This document shows positions 227 to 30,910 of a DNA stretch of 64,000 bases, piece after piece. The position numbers were made by a program, and so were the translations under genes. How positions within the stretch are numbered: position 1 is the stretch's first letter; each line of letters opens with the position of its first letter. Under the pieces are notes generated by a model. That model was given only the letters and a program-made list of their open reading frames with translations, did not search any database and was not told the origin of the DNA. This DNA comes from Slackia faecicanis (GTDB taxonomy: Bacteria; Actinomycetota; Coriobacteriia; Coriobacteriales; Eggerthellaceae), in assembly GCF_003725295.1 (NCBI RefSeq), contig NZ_QICB01000003.1, forward strand, positions 186,001 through 250,000, in the 5' to 3' direction.

Positions 227-1828
227 CTATCGGGCGCCTTCGCGCTCGGCCTCTTCGCCCTGATGGGCGCGATAGGCCTCGGCGTCGATGCACACGGCGA
301 CTTCGCTTCGGTCGCCGCTTTCCATAGCCTCTTTGGTCTCGGCGCGATCGGCATGGCCGAAGGTCTCCATGACCTCCATGCTGCTCAGACGCGACTCGGC
401 GTCGGCGACGGACATGTTATCGTCTTCGCCCGGGTTAGCCACGTAGAGCACGCCGCGCTTGGCGTCGGAACGCGCGCCAACGAACAGGAACAAAAAGCCG
501 ATGATGCCCGCCAGCGTGGAAGCGCTGAGGATGGCGGCCTTCGCCGATACGATGAACGCCTCGTTATCGAACGCCAGGTTGGCGACGAAGATCGCCATGG
601 TGAAGCCGACGCCGCCCAGAACGGCCGCACCGATCATGTGGTGCCAGTTCACGTTCGCGGGAAGCGAAGCCAGGCCGGTCTTGACCACGATGAAGCTGAA
701 CAGCAGGATGCCGATCGGCTTGCCCAGCAGCAGGCCGAAGAACACGCCCGTGAACACCGGCGAGCCGAGCATGGCGGACGGATCGGCGGTGGCCAGATGC
801 ACGTCGGCGTTGGTCAGCGCGAACAGCGGCAGGATCGCGAAGTAGACCCACGGATAGAGCTTGTGCTCGAGCCTGGTAGCGGGAGGAATGACCTGCGCGG
901 CGATGGCGGACAGGTTCTTCACCTCGCGCATGTAGTCCTTCTGGCCGATGACCGGCTCATCGGGGCGATACGCCTCGTAGGCCTTGCGGATCTTCTTGTC
1001 GGACCAGGCGATGAAGCCCTTCAGATTGATGCGCGAGCCGGACGGGATGGCGAAGGCCAGCAGAACGCCCGCGATCGTGGAATGCACGCCGCTCATGTAG
1101 ACGCAGAACCACAGCACCACGCCCACCAGCAGATACGGCACGAGCGAGTACATGTGGGAGCGGTTCATGAGCACGAGCACCACCATGACGCCCGCGGCGG
1201 CGGCCAGCCAGCCGATGCTGGGCGTCTGGCCGTAGAAGATGGCGATGACCAGGATGGCGATGATATCGTCGGCCACGGCCAGCGTGGACAGGAACACGCG
1301 CACGCCGATCGGCACGCGGTTGCCGAGCAGCGCCATGATGCCGAGCGCGAACGCGATATCGGTCGCGGTGGGAACGCCCCAGCCCATGACGGTGTCGGGG
1401 TTGCCCATGTTGAAGATCAGATAGATCACGATCGGCACCAACACGCCGCCGCATGCCGCCACGATGGGCAGCAGCGCCTGGCGGATGTTGGTCAGCTCGC
1501 CGACGGTCATCTCGTATTTGATCTCGAGACCGACCAGCAAGAAGAAGATAGCCATGAGGATGTCGTTGATGACATGCGAGATGGACATGGTGTATGCGGT
1601 ATCGCCCAGAACGAAGCCGATGTTCTGGTGGATGGCGTGCTCGAACGATTCGTACACGCCGGTGTTCGCGATGATCAGCGCGACGATGGCGGCAAGCAGC
1701 ATGATGCCTGCGGCCTTCGTGGCCGAATGGGTGAACTGGATGATCTTTTTGTACCGGGCCTGGTGAGCGTGAACCTCGTCGATGAAGATCGAGGGTTCGG
1801 CGCCCGTAGGACGCTTTTCAGCGGTCAT
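227..1828 (-). CDS. nhaA: Na+/H+ antiporter NhaA
   Basis: A 533-residue inner-membrane secondary transporter that exchanges protons for sodium in pH and sodium homeostasis. The family signatures are visible: TDIAFALG at about 156-163 and the ion-binding Asp pair in LAVADDII at about 187-188, among roughly eleven to twelve hydrophobic helices. It is much longer than the 388-residue E. coli protein. The extra length is an N-terminal cytoplasmic stretch of about 35 residues, an internal charged loop, and an acidic soluble tail of about 85 residues rich in Glu and Asp. The start chosen is the ATG preceded by GGAGGAGGGG; an upstream in-frame ATG lacks such a site. It is transcribed alone, divergently from the amidohydrolase, and ends at a strong terminator. 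The identification is firm; the role of the acidic tail is unknown. Confidence 0.95.
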   Translation of the reverse strand: MTAEKRPTGAEPSIFIDEVHAHQARYKKIIQFTHSATKAAGIMLLAAIVALIIANTGVYESFEHAIHQNIGFVLGDTAYTMSISHVINDILMAIFFLLVGLEIKYEMTVGELTNIRQALLPIVAACGGVLVPIVIYLIFNMGNPDTVMGWGVPTATDIAFALGIMALLGNRVPIGVRVFLSTLAVADDIIAILVIAIFYGQTPSIGWLAAAAGVMVVLVLMNRSHMYSLVPYLLVGVVLWFCVYMSGVHSTIAGVLLAFAIPSGSRINLKGFIAWSDKKIRKAYEAYRPDEPVIGQKDYMREVKNLSAIAAQVIPPATRLEHKLYPWVYFAILPLFALTNADVHLATADPSAMLGSPVFTGVFFGLLLGKPIGILLFSFIVVKTGLASLPANVNWHHMIGAAVLGGVGFTMAIFVANLAFDNEAFIVSAKAAILSASTLAGIIGFLFLFVGARSDAKRGVLYVANPGEDDNMSVADAESRLSSMEVMETFGHADRAETKEAMESGDRSEVAVCIDAEAYRAHQGEEAEREGAR

Positions 1829-1983
1829 TTCCCCTCCTCCGAAATCTATTCTGGCGGCCGCCCCGACCGGGCTGAGGCCTGCGGCGGGCGTGCCCTGTGC
1901 CCCACCGTCGAAACCCATCGGAAGCCGCAGGTCGAAAGCAAGGAAAAACGACCTATGACGAAGCGATGGAGTTGCCTATTATA
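1829..1983 (-). promoter_or_regulatory. nhaA promoter and long 5' leader
   Basis: A consensus -10 (TATAAT on the minus strand) lies at 1978-1983; no good -35 hexamer is seen 16-18 bases upstream. A start near 1972 would give a leader of about 145 bases before the nhaA ATG. The leader is GC-rich, can form several short stems, and ends in a very strong Shine-Dalgarno. The rest of the 312-bp divergent region up to the amidohydrolase start holds no gene. Confidence 0.45.
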
Positions 1984-2140
1984 TCCCCCTGGTGTTTCGG
2001 ATAGCGAAACTATGCCCCGCACGTTTCCGAACTGCCAAGAAAAACCCTACTGGAACCGCAGCTTGCCGCGGTCCGTCTTCGCCGAGGACACGCCTGACGA
2101 AACGCCGCGCATGCTGCACCCCGTCAAGGAGGATGCCGCC

Positions 2141-3778
2141 ATGCACTCCGACATCATCATCACGAGCGAGCACGTCTTCGCGGGCGTCGAAGGATGCGAC
2201 GAGGCGCGTGCCGCCGCGGTCTGCATCAAGGACGGCCGCATCCAGGCCGTCGTCGACCCCGCCGAAGCCGACGCCTACCGCGGCCCCGACACCCGCACGG
2301 TCGACTACGGCAGCGCCTTCGTCTGCCCGGGCCTGCACGACGCGCACCTGCACGCCTTCCATTCCGCCCTGTACTCGAGCCCTCTGGCCGAAAGCTTCCT
2401 CGGCGAATCCGAAGCCGACTGCGTGGCGCGCCTGGCGCCGCTGGCAGAGCGTCGCCCGACCGGCTGGCTGCTGGCGCAAGGGTGGCGCGAATACCGCTGG
2501 AAGACCCCCGTCATGCCGAGCAAGCATTCGCTCGACGAAGTCTACCCCGACCGCCCCGTGGCCCTGTACTCGGGCGACGCGCACACGCTGTGGCTCAATT
2601 CCTGCGCGCTGGCCGAGCTGGGCGTGACCCGCGACAGCGTGCCCCCCGTGGGCGGCAGCTACGACAAGGACGAAAACGGCGAACTCACCGGCATCGTGCG
2701 CGAGGCGGCCGCCATGGAGCTCATGCCGCGCATCGTGGCCTCGTTCACGCTCGACGAGATAGCCGATGCCTACCGCGGCTTCCTGCGCCGCCTGGCGTCG
2801 CATGGCATCACCTCCGTCTGCGACGTGAGCCTCATGGCGCAGCCCGGACTCGACTTCGTGCGCGACGACGTGTACGCGGCGCTTGAAGAAGCGGGCGACC
2901 TCACCGCGCGCGTGCACCTGTTCCCCACCCTGCTCGACGACATGGGCCGCTTCGAACGCATGCGCGAAACCTACCGTGGCCCGCTGCTCAACGTAGGCGG
3001 CTTCAAGCAGTTCTTCGACGGCGTTTCCAGCCAGCATACCGCCTACCTGCAGGCGCCCTACACCAACGCGCGCTTCGAGGGCGACCGCGGCCAGACCACG
3101 GTACCGTTCGCCACGATGCGCGACCTGATCATGAAGGCCGCCGAAAAAGGCTACCCTGTACGCATCCACACGATCGGAGACGAGGCGATCCACGAGGCGC
3201 TCGACATTTTCGAGGAGGCGCTCGAAACCTACGGAGCGCCGCGCTTCGGACGCAATTCGCTCGAACATCTGGAGAACTTCCAGCCCGACGACATCGAGCG
3301 CCTGGCGCGCCTGGGCGTAATCGCGTCGGTCCAGCCGCCGCACATCACGCTCGATCCGGGCGGCCCCGAGCGCGACCTGGGACCGATGCGCTGCCAGTAC
3401 ATGTGGCCGTTCGCCACCCTGCTCGCAGACGGCGCCACGCTGGCCCTGGGAACCGACTCGCCCGTCGTGGACGTCGACTCGCGCGGCGTGCTCTACACGG
3501 CCGTTACCAGGCAGGATGCCACGACCCACGCTCCGCAGGGCGGCTGGCTCCCCTCCGAGAAGATCGGCATGGCGGACGCGCTGCGCGCCTATGCCGCAGG
3601 TTCTGCCGCGGCGGCGAACGACCCCGACATCGGCACGCTCGAGGCGGGCAAATGGGCCGACATCGCCGTGTTCGACCTCGACCTGCTCGGCGAAGACGCC
3701 GCGCGCGAACCCGAGCGCATCCTCGACATGAACACGCTCGCCACCTACGTGGCGGGCCGCGCGGTCTACGAAGCGTAG
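2141..3778 (+). CDS. amidohydrolase family protein (Amidohydro_3/YtcJ-like)
   Basis: A 545-residue predicted cytoplasmic metal-dependent hydrolase of the amidohydrolase superfamily, branch with YtcJ and N-acyl-D-amino-acid deacylase-like enzymes. Visible features are the N-terminal beta-sandwich segment, the HxH metal motif (His69 and His71 within PGLHDAHLH), downstream histidines in IHTIGDE and LEHLENF, and the late Asp in LGTDSPVVDVD. These are the expected metal ligands and base of a TIM-barrel amidohydrolase. The start is the ATG at 2141, which has AAGGAGG seven bases upstream; the open frame extends far upstream but that part is antisense to nhaA and not protein-like. The substrate cannot be inferred. 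It stands alone, with a terminator downstream and nhaA divergent upstream. Confidence 0.9.
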   Translation: MHSDIIITSEHVFAGVEGCDEARAAAVCIKDGRIQAVVDPAEADAYRGPDTRTVDYGSAFVCPGLHDAHLHAFHSALYSSPLAESFLGESEADCVARLAPLAERRPTGWLLAQGWREYRWKTPVMPSKHSLDEVYPDRPVALYSGDAHTLWLNSCALAELGVTRDSVPPVGGSYDKDENGELTGIVREAAAMELMPRIVASFTLDEIADAYRGFLRRLASHGITSVCDVSLMAQPGLDFVRDDVYAALEEAGDLTARVHLFPTLLDDMGRFERMRETYRGPLLNVGGFKQFFDGVSSQHTAYLQAPYTNARFEGDRGQTTVPFATMRDLIMKAAEKGYPVRIHTIGDEAIHEALDIFEEALETYGAPRFGRNSLEHLENFQPDDIERLARLGVIASVQPPHITLDPGGPERDLGPMRCQYMWPFATLLADGATLALGTDSPVVDVDSRGVLYTAVTRQDATTHAPQGGWLPSEKIGMADALRAYAAGSAAAANDPDIGTLEAGKWADIAVFDLDLLGEDAAREPERILDMNTLATYVAGRAVYEA

Positions 3779-3800
3779 CGCGCGACAAGAGCCCGGAGCG

Positions 3801-3842
3801 AACGCCGGCGACGCCTTGCGAAGGGCGGCGCCGGCGTTTTTC
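3801..3842 (+). terminator. intrinsic terminator after amidohydrolase
   Basis: AACGCCGGCG (3801-3810) pairs with CGCCGGCGTT (3829-3838), with an inner GCC/GGC extension. It is followed by a T-run to 3841. Confidence 0.85.
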
Positions 3843-4013
3843 TTCGGCGCGGCGCAGACACGCCCGGGCGCGTTTCCACGTCCGTTTTGGCCATGCCCGG
3901 ATGCGTGGTTCAAGCCACTTCGACAAGATGGCAACGCGGCTGCGCCATGACACGAGAAGTGCGCTACCATGAACCCAGAACCTAGTTCATCCAGCAACGA
4001 AAGGATGGAAAGC

Positions 4014-4580
4014 ATGGATATCAAAGTCATTGGTCGCAAAGTCACCGTCACCGAGCCGTTGAACGCCTACGCCATCGAGAAGATCGGCAACGCCACCAAA
4101 GTCCTGAGCATCGATATCCCCGAAGCCGAGGTCGTACTGCGCGTCGAGAAGACCCGCGCCATCCCCTGCATCTGCGAAGTCACGCTGCGCCTCAAGGGCC
4201 ACACCATCCACGTGGAAGAGCACGAAGAGGATATGTACGCCGCGATCGATGTGGCCGCCGCGAAGGTCCTGCGCCAGCTGCGCAAGTATAAGACCCGCGT
4301 CATCGACTACCGTATGCGCGAAACCCTGAAGGACACCGCCCCGGCAGAGGCCGGCGCCACCGACTTCGACGAACTCATGGCCGAGCTTTCCGCCGACAAA
4401 GAAGTGGTCCGCGTGAAGGAGATGGACTTCGAGCCTATGACCGAGGAAGAGGCCCTCATCCAGATCGACCTGCTGGGCCACGATTTCTTCGTCTACACCG
4501 ACCGCGACACCAACGAAGTCAACGTCATGTATCGCCGCACGGGCGGCGGCTACGGCCTGCTGAAGCCGAAGGCCGAATAA
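4014..4580 (+). CDS. hpf: ribosome hibernation-promoting factor, long form
   Basis: A 188-residue long-form HPF. It binds the decoding centre of idle 70S ribosomes and dimerises them into 100S particles. The N-terminal half (about residues 1-100) has the S30AE/YfiA pattern beginning MDIKVIGRKVTVT. The C-terminal part (about 125-186, MTEEEALIQIDLLGHDFFVY and the NVMYRRTGGGYGLL segment) is the dimerisation domain that distinguishes the long form. The start at 4014 has AAGGATGG five bases upstream; ATGs at 3969 and 4005 are also in frame but less well placed. It is monocistronic with a strong terminator. Confidence 0.93.
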   Translation: MDIKVIGRKVTVTEPLNAYAIEKIGNATKVLSIDIPEAEVVLRVEKTRAIPCICEVTLRLKGHTIHVEEHEEDMYAAIDVAAAKVLRQLRKYKTRVIDYRMRETLKDTAPAEAGATDFDELMAELSADKEVVRVKEMDFEPMTEEEALIQIDLLGHDFFVYTDRDTNEVNVMYRRTGGGYGLLKPKAE

Positions 4581-4600
4581 ACCGACAGCATGCATTGCCC

Positions 4601-4630
4601 GAGGAGGAGCGAAAGCTCCTCCTCTTTTTT
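4601..4630 (+). terminator. intrinsic terminator of hpf
   Basis: A perfect 10-bp stem, GAGGAGGAGC / GCTCCTCCTC with a GAAA tetraloop, is followed by six T residues. Confidence 0.92.
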
Positions 4631-4710
4631 CGTCTGCAGCCGTACGGTCGAGCCGCGCCCTCGCGAGGCGCAAGAGCGCCCCTTGAGCCGCACGTTGGAA
4701 ACGAAACGGA

Positions 4711-4760
4711 AAGGCCCCGCAGCGGAACCATCTCGGGCGAGATGGGCGCTGCAGGGCCTT
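4711..4760 (-). terminator. terminator of the amino acid ABC operon
   Basis: AAGGCCCTGCAGCG pairs with CGCTGCGGGGCCTT (one mismatch) around a smaller inner stem (CATCTCG/CGAGATG). On the minus strand it is followed by a short pyrimidine-rich tract. It lies 22 bases after the ATPase stop. Confidence 0.65.
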
Positions 4761-4782
4761 CCAAGACGTCATACGGACGCTT

Positions 4783-5547
4783 CTAGTAACGCGCCAGGAA
4801 TTCCTTCGTGCGCTGATGCTGCGGATTGTTCACCACCTGGTCGGCGGGGCCTTCCTCGACGATCACGCCGCCGTCCATGAACACGATGCGGTCGGCCACG
4901 TCGCGCGCGAACTGCATCTCGTGCGTGACGATGACCATGGTCATGTGCTCGGCCGCCAGCTGCTTGATCACCTTGAGCACCTCGGCGGTGAGCTCGGGAT
5001 CGAGCGCGCTGGTGGGTTCGTCGAAAAACACCACTTCGGGGTTCATGCACAGGGCGCGGGCGATGCTCACGCGCTGCTGCTGGCCGCCCGAAAGCTGGCA
5101 GGGCACCTTGTCTTCGTTGCCCTCAAGGCCCATCTTCGCGATCAGCTCGCGCGCCTGGCGCTCCACTTCGGCCTTGTCGCGCTTCTGCACGCAGACGGGC
5201 GCGTCCATGATGTTTTTGAGCACCGTGTAGTGCGGGAACAGGTTGTAGTTCTGAAACACCAGGCCGAACTTCATCTTCGCACGGCGCAGCACGTCGGACT
5301 TGGCGTATTCGGCCTTGCCGCTCTGGCCCGTGCTCGCGACGGTCATGTCGTCATAGTACAGCTCGCCCGAATCGAACGTCTCGAGCAGCGTGGCGCAGCG
5401 CAGAAGCGTCGACTTGCCGCCGCCCGACGGGCCGATCACGGCCACCACTTCGCCCGGCATGACGTCGAGCGAGATGTCCTTGAGCACTTCGTTCTTTCCG
5501 AAGCTCTTTTTCACGTGCGCCAGGCGCACCACGGGTTTTTGATCCAT
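4783..5547 (-). CDS. polar amino acid ABC transporter, ATP-binding protein
   Basis: A 254-residue cytoplasmic ATPase of the GlnQ/HisP type that powers uptake of a polar amino acid. It has Walker A GPSGGGKS (39-46), the signature LSGGQQQR (152-159), Walker B VVFFDEP (172-178) and the switch His in VIVTHEMQ. It is the last gene of a three-gene operon (binding protein, permease, ATPase), 33 bases after the permease. The subfamily is confident; the transported amino acid is not determinable here. Confidence 0.95.
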
Positions 5548-5580
5548 AAGACAACTTCCTTATTCGTCAAGCCTCGACCC

Positions 5581-6234
5581 TTAGTCGTGGTAGTAGTTCA
5601 TCTTTTTCTCGACGCGGTTGAGGATGACCTCCACCACGAAGTTGAAGACCCAGTAGAAGATGGCCGCGAACACGAACGGCAGCATAGACACCTGCGAGGC
5701 CACGAGCGCCTTGGCCGAGCTGAACATCTCGCCGACGCCGATAGCGAACGCCAGCGACGTGTCTTTGACCAGCGTGATGATTTCGTTGGCCATGGCGGGC
5801 AGAATGCGCTTGACCACCTGCGGAAGCACGATCTTGGTAAACGTCTGCACACGGGAATAGCCCAGAACCTGCGCGGCCTCGAGCTGGCCCTTCGGCACGG
5901 ACTGGATGCCGCTTCGATAGATCTCGGCGAAGTAGGCGGCGTAGTTGATGATGAACGCCACGATGGTCGCGCTGAACTTCGATTCGGTGCTCAGCTCGAT
6001 GCCGAAGATGTAATACGGGGCGAAGTAAATGAAGAACATCTGCAGCATGAGCGGCGTGCCGCGCATGATCGAGATGTAGAACCTGACCAGCAGCGCCAGC
6101 GGCTTGAACTTGCTCATGCGGCCGAAGGCCACGACGATGCCGAGCGGCAGCGACCCGACCAGGGTCAGGAAAAAGATCTGCAAGGTGACCAGGAATCCCG
6201 ATCCAAGGATTCCCAACATAGTACCGATGTCCAC
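5581..6234 (-). CDS. polar amino acid ABC transporter, permease
   Basis: A 217-residue inner-membrane permease of the HisM/GlnP family. It has about five hydrophobic helices and the EAA loop at AAQVLGYSRVQTFTKIVLPQ, which contacts the ATPase. The best start is a GTG at 6234, preceded by AGAGAGGA with five-base spacing; an in-frame TTG eight codons upstream lacks a ribosome-binding site. It sits between the binding-protein and ATPase genes of the same operon. A single permease gene implies a homodimeric channel. Confidence 0.93.
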   Translation of the reverse strand: MDIGTMLGILGSGFLVTLQIFFLTLVGSLPLGIVVAFGRMSKFKPLALLVRFYISIMRGTPLMLQMFFIYFAPYYIFGIELSTESKFSATIVAFIINYAAYFAEIYRSGIQSVPKGQLEAAQVLGYSRVQTFTKIVLPQVVKRILPAMANEIITLVKDTSLAFAIGVGEMFSSAKALVASQVSMLPFVFAAIFYWVFNFVVEVILNRVEKKMNYYHD

Positions 6235-6332
6235 GACTATCCTCTCTCTACAGCGCAAATCGCGGACGAGCGTGCGCCCGTCCGCGATGGTGTTACAGGT
6301 TCGTTCTCTGGGAAGTCTACCTGAAAACGGCT

Positions 6333-7163
6333 TTACTTGATGAGCCAGTTCTCAAAAGACAAACCGTACTCGGAATACTTGTTGCAAAGCTCCTCGATCG
6401 TGCCGTCTTCGTACATGGCCTTCAGCGTCTGGCTGACTTTCTCGGCGGTTTCGACGTTGCCCTTCTTGAAGCCGACCGCGTAGTGTTCGGAGGAAAGCGT
6501 TTCGTCAAGCATGACGTAGGCATCGGGCTTCGCGCTCATCTGGTACTGAGCGATGGACAAGTCGCAGGCGACCGCATCCACAGCGCCGGATTCGAGCTGC
6601 ATGAAGGCGGTGTTGTACTCGCCGATGGTCTCGAGCTTGCCGAAAGTTGCGGCGAGGCCGGCCTTGTCGCCTTCGAGCACGTCGAGGGCGGCGGAATCGA
6701 CCTGGGTGATGACGGTCTTGCCCGCCAGGTCGTCGAAGGACGAGATGCCCTTGTCCTTCTTCACCACGACCACCTGGCCGTTGAGCATATAGGGCTCGGA
6801 GAAGGCGTAGTCGGCTTCGCGGCCTTCCATGGTGAAGCCGTTCCAAATGCAGGAAATAGCACCGCTATTGAGCAAGGTGTCCTTGGCATCCCAATCGATG
6901 GGCTCGTATTTGACCGTCCATCCGTTGCGCTCGGCCACCTCGGCGGCCAGATCGAGGTCGAAGCCGGTGTAGTTGCCGTCGTTGCCGACGAAACCGTAGG
7001 GCGGATACGACTGGTCGAATCCGACGATGAACTCGGCGCCCTCGGCGGGCGCGCCCTGGGGTTCGCTTTCCGTTGCGGCACCGCCGCCGCAGCCTGCCAG
7101 CATGACGGCCGACAGGGCCATCGCCGCCACGAAGGCGATGATCAAAGACAGCTTCTTCTTCAT
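6333..7163 (-). CDS. amino acid ABC transporter, substrate-binding lipoprotein
   Basis: A 276-residue family 3 solute-binding protein anchored to the outer face of the membrane. The signal peptide has a lipobox ending LAGC, with Cys25 as the lipidated residue. The mature part shows the type II periplasmic-binding-protein fold pattern, including GFDQSYPPYGFV, GFDLDLAAEVAERNGW and the dipeptide-rich hinge. The start ATG has AAGGGTGA upstream. It is the first gene of the operon, about 70 bases downstream of a good promoter with a palindromic operator, so this gene's transcription is likely repressor-controlled. Confidence 0.94.
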   Translation of the reverse strand: MKKKLSLIIAFVAAMALSAVMLAGCGGGAATESEPQGAPAEGAEFIVGFDQSYPPYGFVGNDGNYTGFDLDLAAEVAERNGWTVKYEPIDWDAKDTLLNSGAISCIWNGFTMEGREADYAFSEPYMLNGQVVVVKKDKGISSFDDLAGKTVITQVDSAALDVLEGDKAGLAATFGKLETIGEYNTAFMQLESGAVDAVACDLSIAQYQMSAKPDAYVMLDETLSSEHYAVGFKKGNVETAEKVSQTLKAMYEDGTIEELCNKYSEYGLSFENWLIK

Positions 7164-7210
7164 TTCGTCACCCTTCTTTCTGAAACGTTTTCCTCATTAT
7201 GTTCCTCCAT

Positions 7211-7230
7211 CACTTTAGCATGCTAAAGTG
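7211..7230. promoter_or_regulatory. perfect 20-bp palindrome, candidate operator
   Basis: CACTTTAGCA followed directly by TGCTAAAGTG is perfectly symmetrical. It begins four to five bases downstream of the predicted start point of the ABC operon, where a bound repressor would block initiation. The regulator is not identifiable from the site alone. Confidence 0.7.
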
Positions 7231-7240
7231 CTTGGCTGAT

Positions 7241-7269
7241 AGTATAGCACAGCAGAGCGATGAAGTGAA
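7241..7269 (-). promoter_or_regulatory. promoter of the amino acid ABC operon
   Basis: On the minus strand, -35 TTCACT (7264-7269) and -10 TATACT (7241-7246) are separated by 17 bases. The predicted start is near 7234, giving a leader of about 70 bases. Confidence 0.7.
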
Positions 7270-7276
7270 CAGAGCA

Positions 7277-7303
7277 CAAAAAAGCCCCCCGAAAGCGGAG
7301 GGC
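7277..7303 (-). terminator. terminator of the dmsB-torD-dmsC operon
   Basis: GCCCTCCG pairs with CGGGGGGC (one mismatch) around a short loop. It is followed on the minus strand by a T-run (7277-7283) and lies about 107 bases past the dmsC stop. The stretch between (7304-7409) holds no gene. Confidence 0.75.
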
Positions 7304-7409
7304 GGACAATACGCGCCGGCAAACGGGCGCTATGCATTAGAAAGCGCAGGGGAAAGGCACGGAAATGAAGACATGCGGCAACCGGCCCCGACGGCCGGCG
7401 GAGTTTCGC

Positions 7410-8258
7410 TCAAAAACCCGCTGACAAATACGAGGCGTAAAACGGAAGACGAGAAACGAGCACGCTTGAAAGCACAAGCACGCAGCCGCAAACATCGACG
7501 GCGCATGCCCTCAAGCCCGCCGCCTTCGCCGACTTGCGCTGCATGAACCAACCAGTCGAAGCAAGCGCCGAAAAAACGACGATTGACACGACATAAGAAG
7601 GTACGACATCGGCGGCGGAAGCCACGTTGTTCGAAATTCCCGTCAAGAACAGCGCATGGCACGCCATCATTCCCGCCAGCACAACGATAAGCGGCGGCAA
7701 GGCCTTGAGCGCGCATGCATGCCAGCGACCGGTCTCGGGACGAAACGCCCGCATTATCGAAGCACCGAGCGACACGCCCCCCACCAGGGCGGCAAGCCCC
7801 AAGTTAACGGGCGCATGCCACGTATCCCACGAAGGCACCGTAGGCACCGAATACGCAAGCGCCACCATGGCGACCATCGCAGCACACGCGACAACCGACG
7901 CGACGGCGAGCGTGTTCGCGAACCGGCGGCTATACGTCAGCTTGAACGTATAGAGCCAATACACCCCGGCCGCGAACAAGAATGCGACGACGGCCGCGAC
8001 TTCATTGGATAGAGGAGAACGCCCGATGCCCTCGACGGCATGCAGGGCGTTCGCAGGCGTTCCCAAATGCGTCGCCGACGCGATGAAGCCCGCCCAAGCA
8101 ACAGCAAGCGGGACGATCAGCGCATGATTCATCCTATCGCGCACGGCCGCAGCCGTATCGCGGTGCACCAGAAGATACATCGTCGTCAACGCGAAGGCGA
8201 CCGCGCCGGCGGGAGCCAACGCGGTGAACACCGCCAGCGAACCTCCGCTGAACCCCAT
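7410..8258 (-). CDS. DmsC-like membrane anchor subunit of molybdoenzyme
   Basis: A 282-residue polytopic protein with about eight hydrophobic helices and the DmsC family layout (MGFSGGSLAVFTALAPAGAV at the N-terminus, a conserved THLGTP motif at about residues 63-68). Family members anchor the catalytic and iron-sulfur subunits and oxidise menaquinol. It follows the TorD-like gene by 11 bases and is the last gene of the group. The ATG at 8258 follows a GGGGGCAGGG tract. It probably serves the DmsA-like enzyme encoded upstream, since that operon carries no anchor of its own. Confidence 0.85.
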   Translation of the reverse strand: MGFSGGSLAVFTALAPAGAVAFALTTMYLLVHRDTAAAVRDRMNHALIVPLAVAWAGFIASATHLGTPANALHAVEGIGRSPLSNEVAAVVAFLFAAGVYWLYTFKLTYSRRFANTLAVASVVACAAMVAMVALAYSVPTVPSWDTWHAPVNLGLAALVGGVSLGASIMRAFRPETGRWHACALKALPPLIVVLAGMMACHALFLTGISNNVASAADVVPSYVVSIVVFSALASTGWFMQRKSAKAAGLRACAVDVCGCVLVLSSVLVSRLPFYASYLSAGF

Positions 8259-8269
8259 GACCCTGCCCC

Positions 8270-8947
8270 CTATCTATATATCCTGCGCGCAGCAGGCTCG
8301 ATCGCAAGCAGCGCGCGCACGTCATCGAGCGTCGCCTTGCACAGAAGCGTCAAGCCGCGATACGTCTCGGTGGCCGCCGCGGCGGCGAAGGCATCGAGAA
8401 AGCGGTCGGACCAGCACAGCAGATGGTCGCCGAGCAGCTCGCATAGAAGATCGGGGCGCGATCGCGCAACCTCTGCAGCCAGAATGAGCAGGCGCCCGAA
8501 CTGATCCTCCGGATCGTTTTCGGCATAAAGGCCGCTCACGGCATGCGCGCGCATCCAGTCGCGCAGAAGGACCCATGTGCGCCCGTACATCACTTTCTCG
8601 CGATCCATGTATACCGACCCCCACGGCGGCGCGGGGGAGAAGCCGGCTCCGCGTATGAGACGCGTGAATTCCTCCGACATCGCATCGGGAAACTCGTCCG
8701 TGCCGCACGCAAAACGACAAGCGGCCTCCACGCGATCCGCTTCCTCTCCGAACGGCCAATCGAGCGCGATGTCGATATCGCGCAGCATTCCGAAGGCGCG
8801 GGCGGCGCCTTCTTTGACCGGATGGAACAAGAAGCAGGACCCGAGGATATCGGCGCAGGCCGCGAACGCCTCGAGAAACTCCTCGTCGCGAAGCATCGCC
8901 GCACTGCGTTCGGGGTCGCACACGCGATACGTCTTTTCTTGATTCAT
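8270..8947 (-). CDS. TorD/DmsD-family molybdoenzyme chaperone
   Basis: A 225-residue all-helical cytoplasmic protein of the TorD family, which binds the Tat signal peptide of a molybdoenzyme and assists cofactor loading before export. Family-like features are the N-terminal helix pair around LGSCFLFHPVKEGA and the central WGSVYMDREKVMYG segment, which matches the PxSV/Y(L)D-type signature. The ATG at 8947 has a GGAGGAGG site; an upstream extension of the frame lacks one. It lies between a dmsB-like and a dmsC-like gene, as expected for a dedicated chaperone. Confidence 0.85.
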   Translation of the reverse strand: MNQEKTYRVCDPERSAAMLRDEEFLEAFAACADILGSCFLFHPVKEGAARAFGMLRDIDIALDWPFGEEADRVEAACRFACGTDEFPDAMSEEFTRLIRGAGFSPAPPWGSVYMDREKVMYGRTWVLLRDWMRAHAVSGLYAENDPEDQFGRLLILAAEVARSRPDLLCELLGDHLLCWSDRFLDAFAAAAATETYRGLTLLCKATLDDVRALLAIEPAARRIYR

Positions 8948-8982
8948 GGTCCTCCTCCCATGAAGCCGCGAAACGGCGCGGC

Positions 8983-28166: not shown

Positions 28167-28724
28167 TCAGGCGAAATGCCCCGTTTCGACCAGCTCGACC
28201 GATTTCACCGCGCCGCCCTCGACGACCATCTTCGCCACGCTAGGCGCCGAACCGCCGCGCGGACGCGTCACCGAGCCGGGACACACCACCAGGCTCGCAG
28301 GCGAAGCGGCCTTGCCCTTCAGGATGCGCGGCACATGCGTATGGCCGTGCACCGCCACCTGCGGAACCGGGTCGCCCGGCTGCAGCGCCGACGTGCATCC
28401 GCGCAACGCGCGCTGCAGATCGTCGGGCGTGTGCGTCACCAGGAATCGTACGCCGCCGATCACGGGCGTGGCGAACCGGCCCACCGCTTCGCCGTATTCG
28501 CGGCAATCGTTGTTGCCCAGCACCGCCGTGACCGGCGCGAGCGTTTCGAGCTCGGCCAGAATGCCGGGGTCGCAGATATCGCCCGCATGCACGATGAAAT
28601 CGCAGTCGGCAAGCTCGGCGAAGGCGGCCTGAGGCAGCACGCCGTGCGTATCGGACAGAATGCCCACGAGCAGGGGCCCATCGACGCCCGACCGCGCGGC
28701 GCCGGCCATGCGCTGATCGGCCAC
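28167..28724 (-). CDS. YfcE/MJ0936-type metallophosphoesterase
   Basis: A 185-residue calcineurin-like phosphoesterase. The dimetal motifs appear in order: GILSDTHG (DxH), VHAGDICD (GD), LGNNDCREY (GNND) and HTPDD with VHGHTHVP (GHTH). The start is a GTG two bases after the stop of the upstream gene, with GAGGAGGAATAGCC providing the ribosome-binding site, so translation is probably coupled to the upstream OST-HTH protein. Family members hydrolyse phosphodiesters; the substrate is unknown. Confidence 0.9.
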   Translation of the reverse strand: MADQRMAGAARSGVDGPLLVGILSDTHGVLPQAAFAELADCDFIVHAGDICDPGILAELETLAPVTAVLGNNDCREYGEAVGRFATPVIGGVRFLVTHTPDDLQRALRGCTSALQPGDPVPQVAVHGHTHVPRILKGKAASPASLVVCPGSVTRPRGGSAPSVAKMVVEGGAVKSVELVETGHFA

Positions 28725-28726
28725 GG

Positions 28727-30715
28727 CTATTCCTCCTCGTCTTCTTCCTCGGCCGCGTCGATGATCGATGCGGGCGAGAGCCAATCGATATACGGGCGGC
28801 AGAGCAGGCGCGCATCGCGGTAGGCCTGTGCCATGGTGACGACGGTCTGGCCCTGGTAGTTGCCCGATTTCTGCAGCTCCACCACAAGCGCCACGTCAGG
28901 CGTCGGCGAGTCGGTCAAGATCAGCGGAAGCAGCAGGTTCATGCTGTTCGTGCGCGGGTAATACGCGGGAACGGCGGTCTTGTAGTTCCAGCGCACCTGG
29001 CGCTTGGCCACGTCGATCGCGGCGTTGATGCTCGTGCTGAGGCGGTTGAACAGGCGCGTGTCGTTCTCGATCACGCCGCGCAGCTTCTCGAAACGCTCGC
29101 CGCGCGCGCCGTCGGAAAGCTCCTCGATGCCCGCCAGGATGCCCAGGCACTCCTGAGACGACGCCAGCTCGTCGCGCAGGAAATTCACCGGCAGCCTGTG
29201 CACGTTGTCCACCACGATGTGGTGCACGTCGCACACCACCTCGCGATCCAGGTCGAACAGCAGGTCTTCCTTGCGCTCAAGATAGCTTGCGGGCTGCGGC
29301 AGCGGATTGAGCTCGCGCACCAGGCGCTTGCCGAGTCTGCCCGTGCCCGCCGTGCAAAAGCCCGAAAACGACCACGGATAGCGCGTCTCTTCCGGCTTGT
29401 CGGGGTCGGACGGCTCGAAGCAGGCGTAGATGTCTTCGTAGTGCTTGTCCACCAGGCCCGTGTTGAACACGGCGAAATCCTCATCGGAGGAAAAGCCCAC
29501 CTTGTCTTCGAGCGTCAGACGGTAGAAGGTGTAACGGATGTAATTGTGCAGAATGTCGAACTTGCGCGTGTTGGCGTCGAGTCCGGCGCCGCTGAAATCC
29601 CACGGCTCGTCGAGGGCGAGGTCGGCCAGCGTGGCCAAGAATTCCTGCCACGTTCCCAGGTAGCCGAAGCGCTCGAGCGCTTTGCCGGGAATGACGCGGC
29701 GGCGCGGGCGTCGGATGTCCGGGCGCGAAGCCGCGGCGCCCTGCGCCGATCCGGCCTTGCTCGCAGACGCGGGCTTGGCGGTACGGCGGCGGGCAGACGA
29801 ATCATGCTCGGATGCGCCGCGACGCGTCTGGGCGGCGTCCTGCTTCTTGTCGTCTTTCTCATCCGAAGCGGAATCGGCCTTCTTGTCGGATTCGGCCGCC
29901 TTGCCTGCGGGCGCCTTCTTCGCCTGGTCGCCCGCATTCGGCTTGGCATCCGGCGAAGCGTCCGCAGAAGAAGCGTCCTGGGCCGCATCGGCCTGCTCGT
30001 GAGCGCCGCAGCCTCGGCCCGGTTTCGGGGCGCTGCCCGATTGAGCGGAACGGCGCACCGGGGTTTTCCCCTGCTTCTGCTCTTCCGCTTTTTCGGCCTG
30101 CTTTTCTTTTACCTGGTCAGTATTAGTATCTATTTGATTGTCAGTACTATTTTTATCTTTCTTATTCGCGTCTACTTTACTTTTCTTGTCTTGTTTTTTT
30201 TCAGCTTCAGCAGACTCTTTTGAATCGGCTTTCTTAGATTCACTATCGTTACTATTCGCATCATTAGTATCTTTTTGATTGCTAGGTTTCTTTTTGTCTG
30301 CTTGGTTACTTTGCTGCGCCTTATCTTTTTTAGAAACCGCGTTCGCGAAACGAGCCTCTTCATCGGCTGCAGCCTGGCGCGCCGGGTCATCGCCCTCTTC
30401 GCCCTCGACGGGCGCGACCTCGTCGACGGAGGGCGCGTCGTTTTCGTAATCCTCGAACTCGTGCAGGCAGAACATCGACTGCGATACGCCGCCGATCTCT
30501 TTCGTGGACAGGCTCACGAAATCGGACATTTCCTCAAGCATGGGCTTGAGCTTCAGAAAGCCGTAGTCTTCGCGGTTGATGCCTTCGCGAACGAAGCACC
30601 AGCCAAGGCTTGCCAGCGGGTAGTCTTCGTCGAAATCGAACTTCTTCTTCAGCGCACGATAGATGAACCGACGGTCGTCGTCGGACATGTGCGGCTTTGC
30701 GGGTTTGCGGGCCAT
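28727..30715 (-). CDS. OST-HTH/LOTUS-like plus DUF3825-like protein with charged linker
   Basis: A 662-residue protein. Residues about 12-82 match the OST-HTH/LOTUS pattern (DYPLASLGWCFV followed by YGFLKLKPMLEEMSDFVSL), a predicted RNA-binding winged helix. Residues about 345-655 look like DUF3825 (FGYLGTWQEFLATLADLAL and the later VPAYYPRTNSMNLLLPL segment). Between them lies a 250-residue disordered linker rich in Lys, Asp, Ser, Gln and Ala. Part of the linker (about 30095-30345) is strongly AT-rich with codons rare elsewhere in the window. The ATG at 30715 has AGGAGG. It is translationally coupled to the downstream phosphoesterase. I recognise the domains by pattern only; an RNA-related role is inferred. 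Confidence 0.75.
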   Translation of the reverse strand: MARKPAKPHMSDDDRRFIYRALKKKFDFDEDYPLASLGWCFVREGINREDYGFLKLKPMLEEMSDFVSLSTKEIGGVSQSMFCLHEFEDYENDAPSVDEVAPVEGEEGDDPARQAAADEEARFANAVSKKDKAQQSNQADKKKPSNQKDTNDANSNDSESKKADSKESAEAEKKQDKKSKVDANKKDKNSTDNQIDTNTDQVKEKQAEKAEEQKQGKTPVRRSAQSGSAPKPGRGCGAHEQADAAQDASSADASPDAKPNAGDQAKKAPAGKAAESDKKADSASDEKDDKKQDAAQTRRGASEHDSSARRRTAKPASASKAGSAQGAAASRPDIRRPRRRVIPGKALERFGYLGTWQEFLATLADLALDEPWDFSGAGLDANTRKFDILHNYIRYTFYRLTLEDKVGFSSDEDFAVFNTGLVDKHYEDIYACFEPSDPDKPEETRYPWSFSGFCTAGTGRLGKRLVRELNPLPQPASYLERKEDLLFDLDREVVCDVHHIVVDNVHRLPVNFLRDELASSQECLGILAGIEELSDGARGERFEKLRGVIENDTRLFNRLSTSINAAIDVAKRQVRWNYKTAVPAYYPRTNSMNLLLPLILTDSPTPDVALVVELQKSGNYQGQTVVTMAQAYRDARLLCRPYIDWLSPASIIDAAEEEDEEE

Positions 30716-30850
30716 AAGGCCTCCTATCGTATGAAATGAACGGCGCAGACGCATACCGCGCCGGAATCGGACATGCGGCCATCATACGGAAAACGCGCGG
30801 CTCCATTCGCCGATGCATCGAAAAAGCGGACGGCTTCGCGCATAACGAAC

Positions 30851-30882
30851 AAGGCGCCGCGCATGAGGATGCACGGCGCCTT
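30851..30882 (-). terminator. terminator of the rlmH gene
   Basis: AAGGCGCCG pairs with CGGCGCCTT, extended inward by GCAT/ATGC around a CCTC loop. TTGTTCG follows on the minus strand. Confidence 0.7.
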
Positions 30883-30910
30883 GGCGTAAGGCGTTCGTCG
30901 GATGACGGGG

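Follow-up and report, generated by a model that had tools for sequence, protein, structure and literature searches.

An OST-HTH/LOTUS-like protein with a DUF3825 domain in Slackia faecicanis: a candidate RNA-targeting effector with a possible BECR-like ribonuclease domain

What is the function of a bacterial protein that joins an OST-HTH/LOTUS-like N terminus to a DUF3825 domain through a long charged linker? Such a protein, of 662 amino acids, is encoded in Slackia faecicanis on the minus strand at positions 28727 to 30715 of the window (the whole 64,000-nucleotide stretch of DNA that was analyzed). The gene was defined by its open reading frame, its Pfam match, and seven Slackia orthologues, and direct reading of the sequence places an AGGAGG ribosome-binding site (positions 30720 to 30725, minus strand) ahead of the ATG at 30715. 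The reading that we favor, at a probability just short of even, is that of a LOTUS-guided RNA-targeting effector whose DUF3825 domain would be a metal-independent BECR-like endoribonuclease with a predicted site at His499 and Thr624.

Pfam places DUF3825 (PF12873) at residues 363 to 645 (positions 28781 to 29629, minus strand) with an E value of 3.6e-65 and 220.3 bits, against a gathering cutoff of 27 bits. The match runs over the whole profile (1 to 238 of 238), which bears out an earlier note on this DNA that had called the C terminus DUF3825-like. DUF3825 was the only family that Pfam found, and an NYN/DUF88 nuclease was absent from the same polypeptide. NCBIfam gave no match to the 662-residue protein, and a search with the PADLOC-DB models gave a marginal match alone (“Control_protein,” E = 0.015) and no known antiphage system.

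The N terminus (residues 1 to 92; positions 30440 to 30715, minus strand) was placed by comparison of profiles. The full-length protein had no OST-HTH match in Pfam, and the N terminus searched alone scored 16.3 bits against OST-HTH (PF12872; E = 0.0093), below the cutoff of 23.8. Three of four whole Slackia orthologues had a subthreshold OST-HTH match on the same stretch (E = 0.013 to 0.093), and among 25 N termini of DUF3825 proteins, 10 matched OST-HTH (best E = 6.5e-4) and no other family matched more than a single one. Profile-profile comparison of these 25 N termini with 21 actinobacterial OST-HTH domains, taken from 30 fetched loci of which 9 were left out, gave a score of 34.3 and a probability of 88%, with 200 column shuffles reaching at most 19.1. 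The closer 11 N termini scored 37.8 (probability, 92%; 200 shuffles, at most 15.7), and the eight Slackia sequences by themselves gave a weak result (probability, 17%). The Ghxph motif, which lies in the insert between helices 2 and 3 and defines OST-HTH (PMC2848206), is found as GFLKL from residue 52. An AlphaFold model of the N-terminal part (pLDDT 43.8) is too poor to judge a winged helix. Judged by its sequence, the N terminus is OST-HTH-like, as had been proposed, and falls below formal Pfam membership. The earlier note had also allowed that profile searches might fail to place either terminus; both were placed, DUF3825 by Pfam and OST-HTH by profile-profile comparison. The long charged linker described there was recovered as well: residues 93 to 340 (positions 29696 to 30439, minus strand) form a charge-balanced polyampholyte of disordered-type composition, with 40% charged residues, a net charge per residue of +0.012, and one aromatic.

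Of 396 Coriobacteriia genomes, 143 carry DUF3825, as do 6 of 296 genomes sampled from the host phylum. Close tblastn searches also located the domain on plasmids (9 records) and phages (7 records), the latter being those of Listeria, Streptococcus, and Ruminococcus. A plasmid-borne query matched 44 plasmid records (35 from Campylobacter), a profile scan of viral contigs yielded 32 loci, and E. coli DNA searched with the DUF3825 gene of an Enterobacter plasmid gave no match. The phage proteins of PHROG 11623 match the window protein (E = 4e-30); the two are similar in sequence, and the phage versions that were classed differ in lacking OST-HTH. From 150 DUF3825 matches, 88 plus the window protein were retained and reduced to 73 proteins at less than 90% identity. 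Nineteen of these were OST-HTH-like, a count that rests on a model built from A4, whose own members match it by construction. Four were cold-shock proteins, a label assigned by hand to L072 to L076, of which L072 and L073 were tested with Pfam (L072, E = 3.6e-4, subthreshold; L073, E = 2.4e-10). Seventeen carried X only, 25 were stand-alone, and 8 were classed as other. X is an unnamed domain of ∼85 residues that occurs in one or two copies N-terminal to DUF3825 (L122, L123, L026, and L019) and, in those proteins that were scanned, matched no Pfam family. An OST-HTH-like, cold-shock, or X domain precedes DUF3825 in 40 of the 73 proteins; the phage, plasmid, and viral members are stand-alone, cold-shock, or “other” throughout, with no OST-HTH. 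That DUF3825 is repeatedly joined to domains of the RNA-binding type strengthens the view that these proteins act on RNA.

Outside Slackia, the gene occupies unrelated settings: phages, plasmids, a TerY-P-like operon, and a position beside JetABC-like genes. Integrase genes adjoin DUF3825 in all five viral candidates tested (L073, L078, L083, L087, and L089). In Listeria phage A006, DUF3825 lies two genes from AcrIIA1 and close to attP, and a Geobacillus plasmid encodes an Abi_C protein 1.5 kb from it. At L113 (positions 490 to 8956), a DUF3825 protein from a clade lacking His499 and Thr624 (see below) is encoded directly upstream of DUF3375, DUF4194, and SbcC-like genes, which we take to be JetABC/Wadjet-like; no fourth Jet gene was present in the L113 stretch. 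The protein L021 has the architecture DUF4062-OST-X-DUF3825, and its locus (L115) also holds TIR-WD40 and TPR proteins. At L176 (positions 415 to 5010), vWA, PP2C, and kinase genes are followed 27 bases on by the gene for an X-DUF3825 protein, directly after a triad of the TerY-P-like kind; the window gene, in contrast, has no such neighbors. Modules of vWA, PP2C, and kinase are described as antiphage systems or their partners (PMC11090510). As a locus, L176 resembles a TerY-P defense triad plus an extra effector. Plasmids of Campylobacter jejuni/coli commonly carry DUF3825, and in two such plasmid stretches (L104 and L105) it lies near HicAB and YafQ toxin-antitoxin genes. At L160 (positions 3967 to 8397), a DUF3825 protein has a C-terminal extension, and a kinase-DUF285 protein is encoded 36 bases later. 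Visual inspection of 30 additional genome loci revealed no constant partner gene, apart from the neighbor found at L151 to L153, which is presumably isocitrate-dehydrogenase-like; all three of these loci belong to the His/Thr-less clade. Neither an antitoxin nor an immunity gene was observed with DUF3825, and no antitoxin gene adjoins the window gene, whose neighbors are rlmH and yfcE; this would be unusual for a toxic RNase and counts against one. If the window protein is a LOTUS-guided RNase, it was possibly recruited from mobile-element conflict.

The DUF3825 domain yielded an AlphaFold model with a pLDDT of 88.7 and a pTM of 0.84, in which DSSP assigns helices in model residues 201 to 242 and strands at 248 to 252, 257 to 264, 274 to 280, and 286 to 293. 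By title, 19 of the best 20 VIA-align rows were RelE/ParE/HigB/YoeB/YafQ/BrnT/colicin D/CDI toxin/Cami1-type chains, with Z scores of 3.7 to 4.8, the highest of which is weak by VIA-align's own note and may reflect a common arrangement. Eighteen of these 19 rows cover model residues ∼155 to 314, and the toxins are aligned over nearly their full length (in the first row, 86 of 87 residues). We assume that 6cp8, 6cp9, and Cami1 share the same BECR fold. As defined in PMC3482391, BECR denotes a helical segment and then a four-stranded meander, often with Ser/Thr in strand 4, and its definers used DALI Z scores above 3.5. Model residues 155 to 314 likewise form a helical segment and then a four-stranded meander, with an invariant Thr at model position 290. 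The predicted structure weakly resembles the RelE/ParE/colicin D-type (BECR) RNases.

Sequence comparison gave DUF3825 a score of 15.3 against a ParE profile (shuffles, at most 17.0) and 11.7 against an EndoU profile (shuffles, at most 13.4), after removal of 17 rows that were divergent, fragmentary, or without His/Thr, and with EndoU represented by three of five stretches; distant members need not show similarity in such a comparison. EndoU chains were absent from the best 50 VIA-align rows listed, which is uninformative. The model had no match in BFVD at E ≤ 0.001; the top 10 there included two phage MuF C-terminal domain proteins (three in the best 50), at a probability of ≤0.47. An internal duplication of DUF3825, with two BECR units as in EndoU, found no support in sequence (N half versus C half, score of 8.8; mean of 100 shuffles, 10.9); one HigB2 chain aligns to the N half (VIA-align row 17), so that the domain may still be duplicated in structure. 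DUF3825 might instead be another enzyme acting on RNA or nucleotides, such as a ligase, phosphatase, or transferase. No solved structure matched DUF3825 by sequence (matches to the N terminus had E values of 0.5 to 1.3), Foldseek of the model against the PDB found none at E ≤ 0.001, and the invariant polar residues Glu370, Trp372, and Thr419 lie outside the BECR-like half, all in keeping with such an enzyme. However, a single superfamily of RNases or gyrase toxins accounts for 19 of the 20 top-ranked structural rows, and we consider this alternative unlikely.

Residue conservation lends further support to the favored BECR-like endoribonuclease. Across 57 diverse DUF3825 rows, 22 columns were ≥93% conserved, and the window protein retains all conserved residues. 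His499 (codon at positions 29219 to 29221, minus strand) and Thr624 (positions 28844 to 28846, minus strand), both predicted to be catalytic, were invariant in all 57 rows, phage- and plasmid-borne ones included. Thr624, at model residue 290, lies in the fourth sheet strand (286 to 293), where BECR enzymes often have a catalytic Ser/Thr. His499 is positioned where the helical segment starts, and an Asp four residues on is reminiscent of the colicin D Hxx[ED]. In a clade of 14 rows, His499 was retained in none (and gapped in five), Thr624 in one, and Pro641 in none, and Asn577 and Tyr586 were also altered; most other conserved columns were kept, and Arg636 (positions 28808 to 28810, minus strand) was invariant even there. 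This is a single clade (support, 100/100) drawn from Coriobacteriia families f4 and f2, and its 14 rows are not independent because His and Thr were lost together once, on a single long branch; L071 was left out of the tree, and L071 and L033 were left out of the conservation count. On sequence grounds, the joint loss of residues is the pattern of an enzyme gone inactive in one lineage.

The same clade also suits a different reading, in which DUF3825 is a noncatalytic RNA- or protein-binding domain, the protein regulates or stores RNA, and the His/Thr site is a ligand pocket. The clade still keeps the domain in many Coriobacteriia, and the long polyampholyte linker recalls granule-forming proteins; LOTUS-linker proteins of germ granules regulate or store RNA. 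However, that His499 and Thr624 never vary across the 57 divergent rows probably exceeds the usual need of plain RNA binding, and we assign this reading a low probability. Were the protein instead the LOTUS-guided endoribonuclease that we prefer, its N-terminal winged helix would bind RNA, the charged linker of roughly 250 residues would allow reach to, or clustering on, the bound RNA, and the BECR-like C-terminal DUF3825 would cut it metal independently via His499 and Thr624, with Arg507, Tyr620, and Arg636 as further candidate site residues. DUF3825 by itself is found on phages, prophages, and plasmids, multidomain forms sometimes stand beside conflict-type genes, and in one Slackia sublineage the gene sits stably in the chromosome, flanked by rlmH and yfcE. 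The role of such a protein, we infer, would lie in defense or in RNA turnover.

The earlier note had suggested an RNA-binding or RNA-processing module, in part on the basis of an NYN nuclease, RlmH, and RlmB within 4 kb. All three are encoded within 2.5 kb upstream of the DUF3825 gene; the NYN neighbor is of the YacP type and a separate gene, not the OST-HTH-type (DUF88) nuclease. Seven Slackia loci hold orthologues, with YfcE and rhodanese genes downstream in 7 of 7 and RlmB-NYN-RlmH upstream in all 6 whose contig extends that far. Among 12 Slackia genomes searched, the DUF3825 gene lies between RlmH and YfcE in 8; contig ends cut the locus in G003 and G011, which are uninformative for its presence beside rlmH; and in G007 and G009 the run RlmB-NYN-RlmH-YfcE-rhodanese is complete but lacks the gene, so that the gene either entered an existing cluster or dropped out of one. 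G007 has a different DUF3825 protein at another locus. Elsewhere in Slackia, an OST-HTH/X/DUF3825 paralogue of G008 (L108, positions 4330 to 6015, and L025) is split over two reading frames, and the related L024 of G005 is open throughout. A terminator-like hairpin of 15 pairs with a T-rich tail, identified by pattern match only, lies between rlmH and the DUF3825 gene (positions 30850 to 30883, minus strand). Downstream, a YfcE-type phosphoesterase gene (positions 28167 to 28724, minus strand) has a likely GTG start at 28724; translational coupling to it is plausible because this GTG follows the DUF3825-gene stop by 2 nt and GAGGAGG lies within the end of the upstream gene. The pair is not specific, since YfcE stays where the DUF3825 gene is missing.

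All 12 Slackia genomes have RlmH and YacP side by side, and none of 18 non-Slackia genomes with clear matches to both does, though in 16 of the 18 the two are on different contigs. A housekeeping module for rRNA or mRNA processing that unites the gene with RlmH, RlmB, and the YacP-like nuclease is very improbable, for although gene order holds in all seven Slackia loci with an orthologue, to the limits of their contigs, two Slackia genomes have the cluster without the gene, the hairpin intervenes, and outside Slackia RlmH and YacP were not seen together (0 of those 18 genomes) and DUF3825 lies elsewhere. A functional tie to these genes is not supported and was dropped on the evidence of G007 and G009; the “RNA cluster” reading is weak because the cluster persists in those genomes when the gene is absent and the hairpin stands between the gene and RlmH. 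Of the module once suggested, the RNA-acting protein stands, on its domains and their recurrent fusions, and the link to RlmH, RlmB, and NYN does not. The neighborhood is conserved in one Slackia sublineage and not beyond it, where DUF3825 occurs in unrelated places.

The preferred LOTUS-guided endoribonuclease has partial counterparts among known proteins. In the available part of PMC2848206, almost all bacterial OST-HTH proteins have a DUF88/LK nuclease, and bacterial LK-nuclease (DUF88/NYN-type) proteins with OST-HTH, as well as MARF1/limkain b1, likewise combine an OST-HTH-type domain and a (predicted) RNase in one chain; that group also has cold-shock fusions, as the DUF3825 group does, and the same text makes no mention of an OST-HTH-DUF3825 pairing. 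Unlike those proteins, the window protein has DUF3825 rather than PIN/NYN as its C-terminal partner, with OST-HTH at the N terminus and a long charged linker between. Compared with the BECR RNases (RelE/ParE, colicin D, CDI toxins, and EndoU; PMC3482391 and PMC11980606), the C half of DUF3825 is a weak structural match and similarly has a helical segment ahead of a four-stranded meander, with an invariant Thr in strand 4 and an invariant His in the helical segment; it differs in that no sequence similarity was found, an extra N-terminal half is present, no antitoxin or immunity partner was seen, and the fusions are of the RNA-binding type. Neither “DUF3825” nor “PF12873” was mentioned in the 5.39 million open papers searched by name or Pfam number, and in the same literature, “OST-HTH” and “RelE” as whole words occurred together in a HEPN review alone.

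A broader account, which we regard as possible but rather doubtful, is that DUF3825 founds a new metal-independent BECR RNase family carried alone by mobile elements, to which Coriobacteriia repeatedly added LOTUS-type domains. The Slackia form would then be the bacterial equivalent of LOTUS-nuclease proteins such as MARF1, using another nuclease and a granule-type linker, and the sister clade would be a pseudo-nuclease limited to RNA binding. The predicted catalytic pair His499/Thr624, together with a clade that naturally lacks it, makes the function directly testable. If the protein is active, LOTUS-guided RNA cleavage would extend beyond the PIN/NYN nucleases, and this simple bacterial protein would offer a means of asking how LOTUS domains select RNA.
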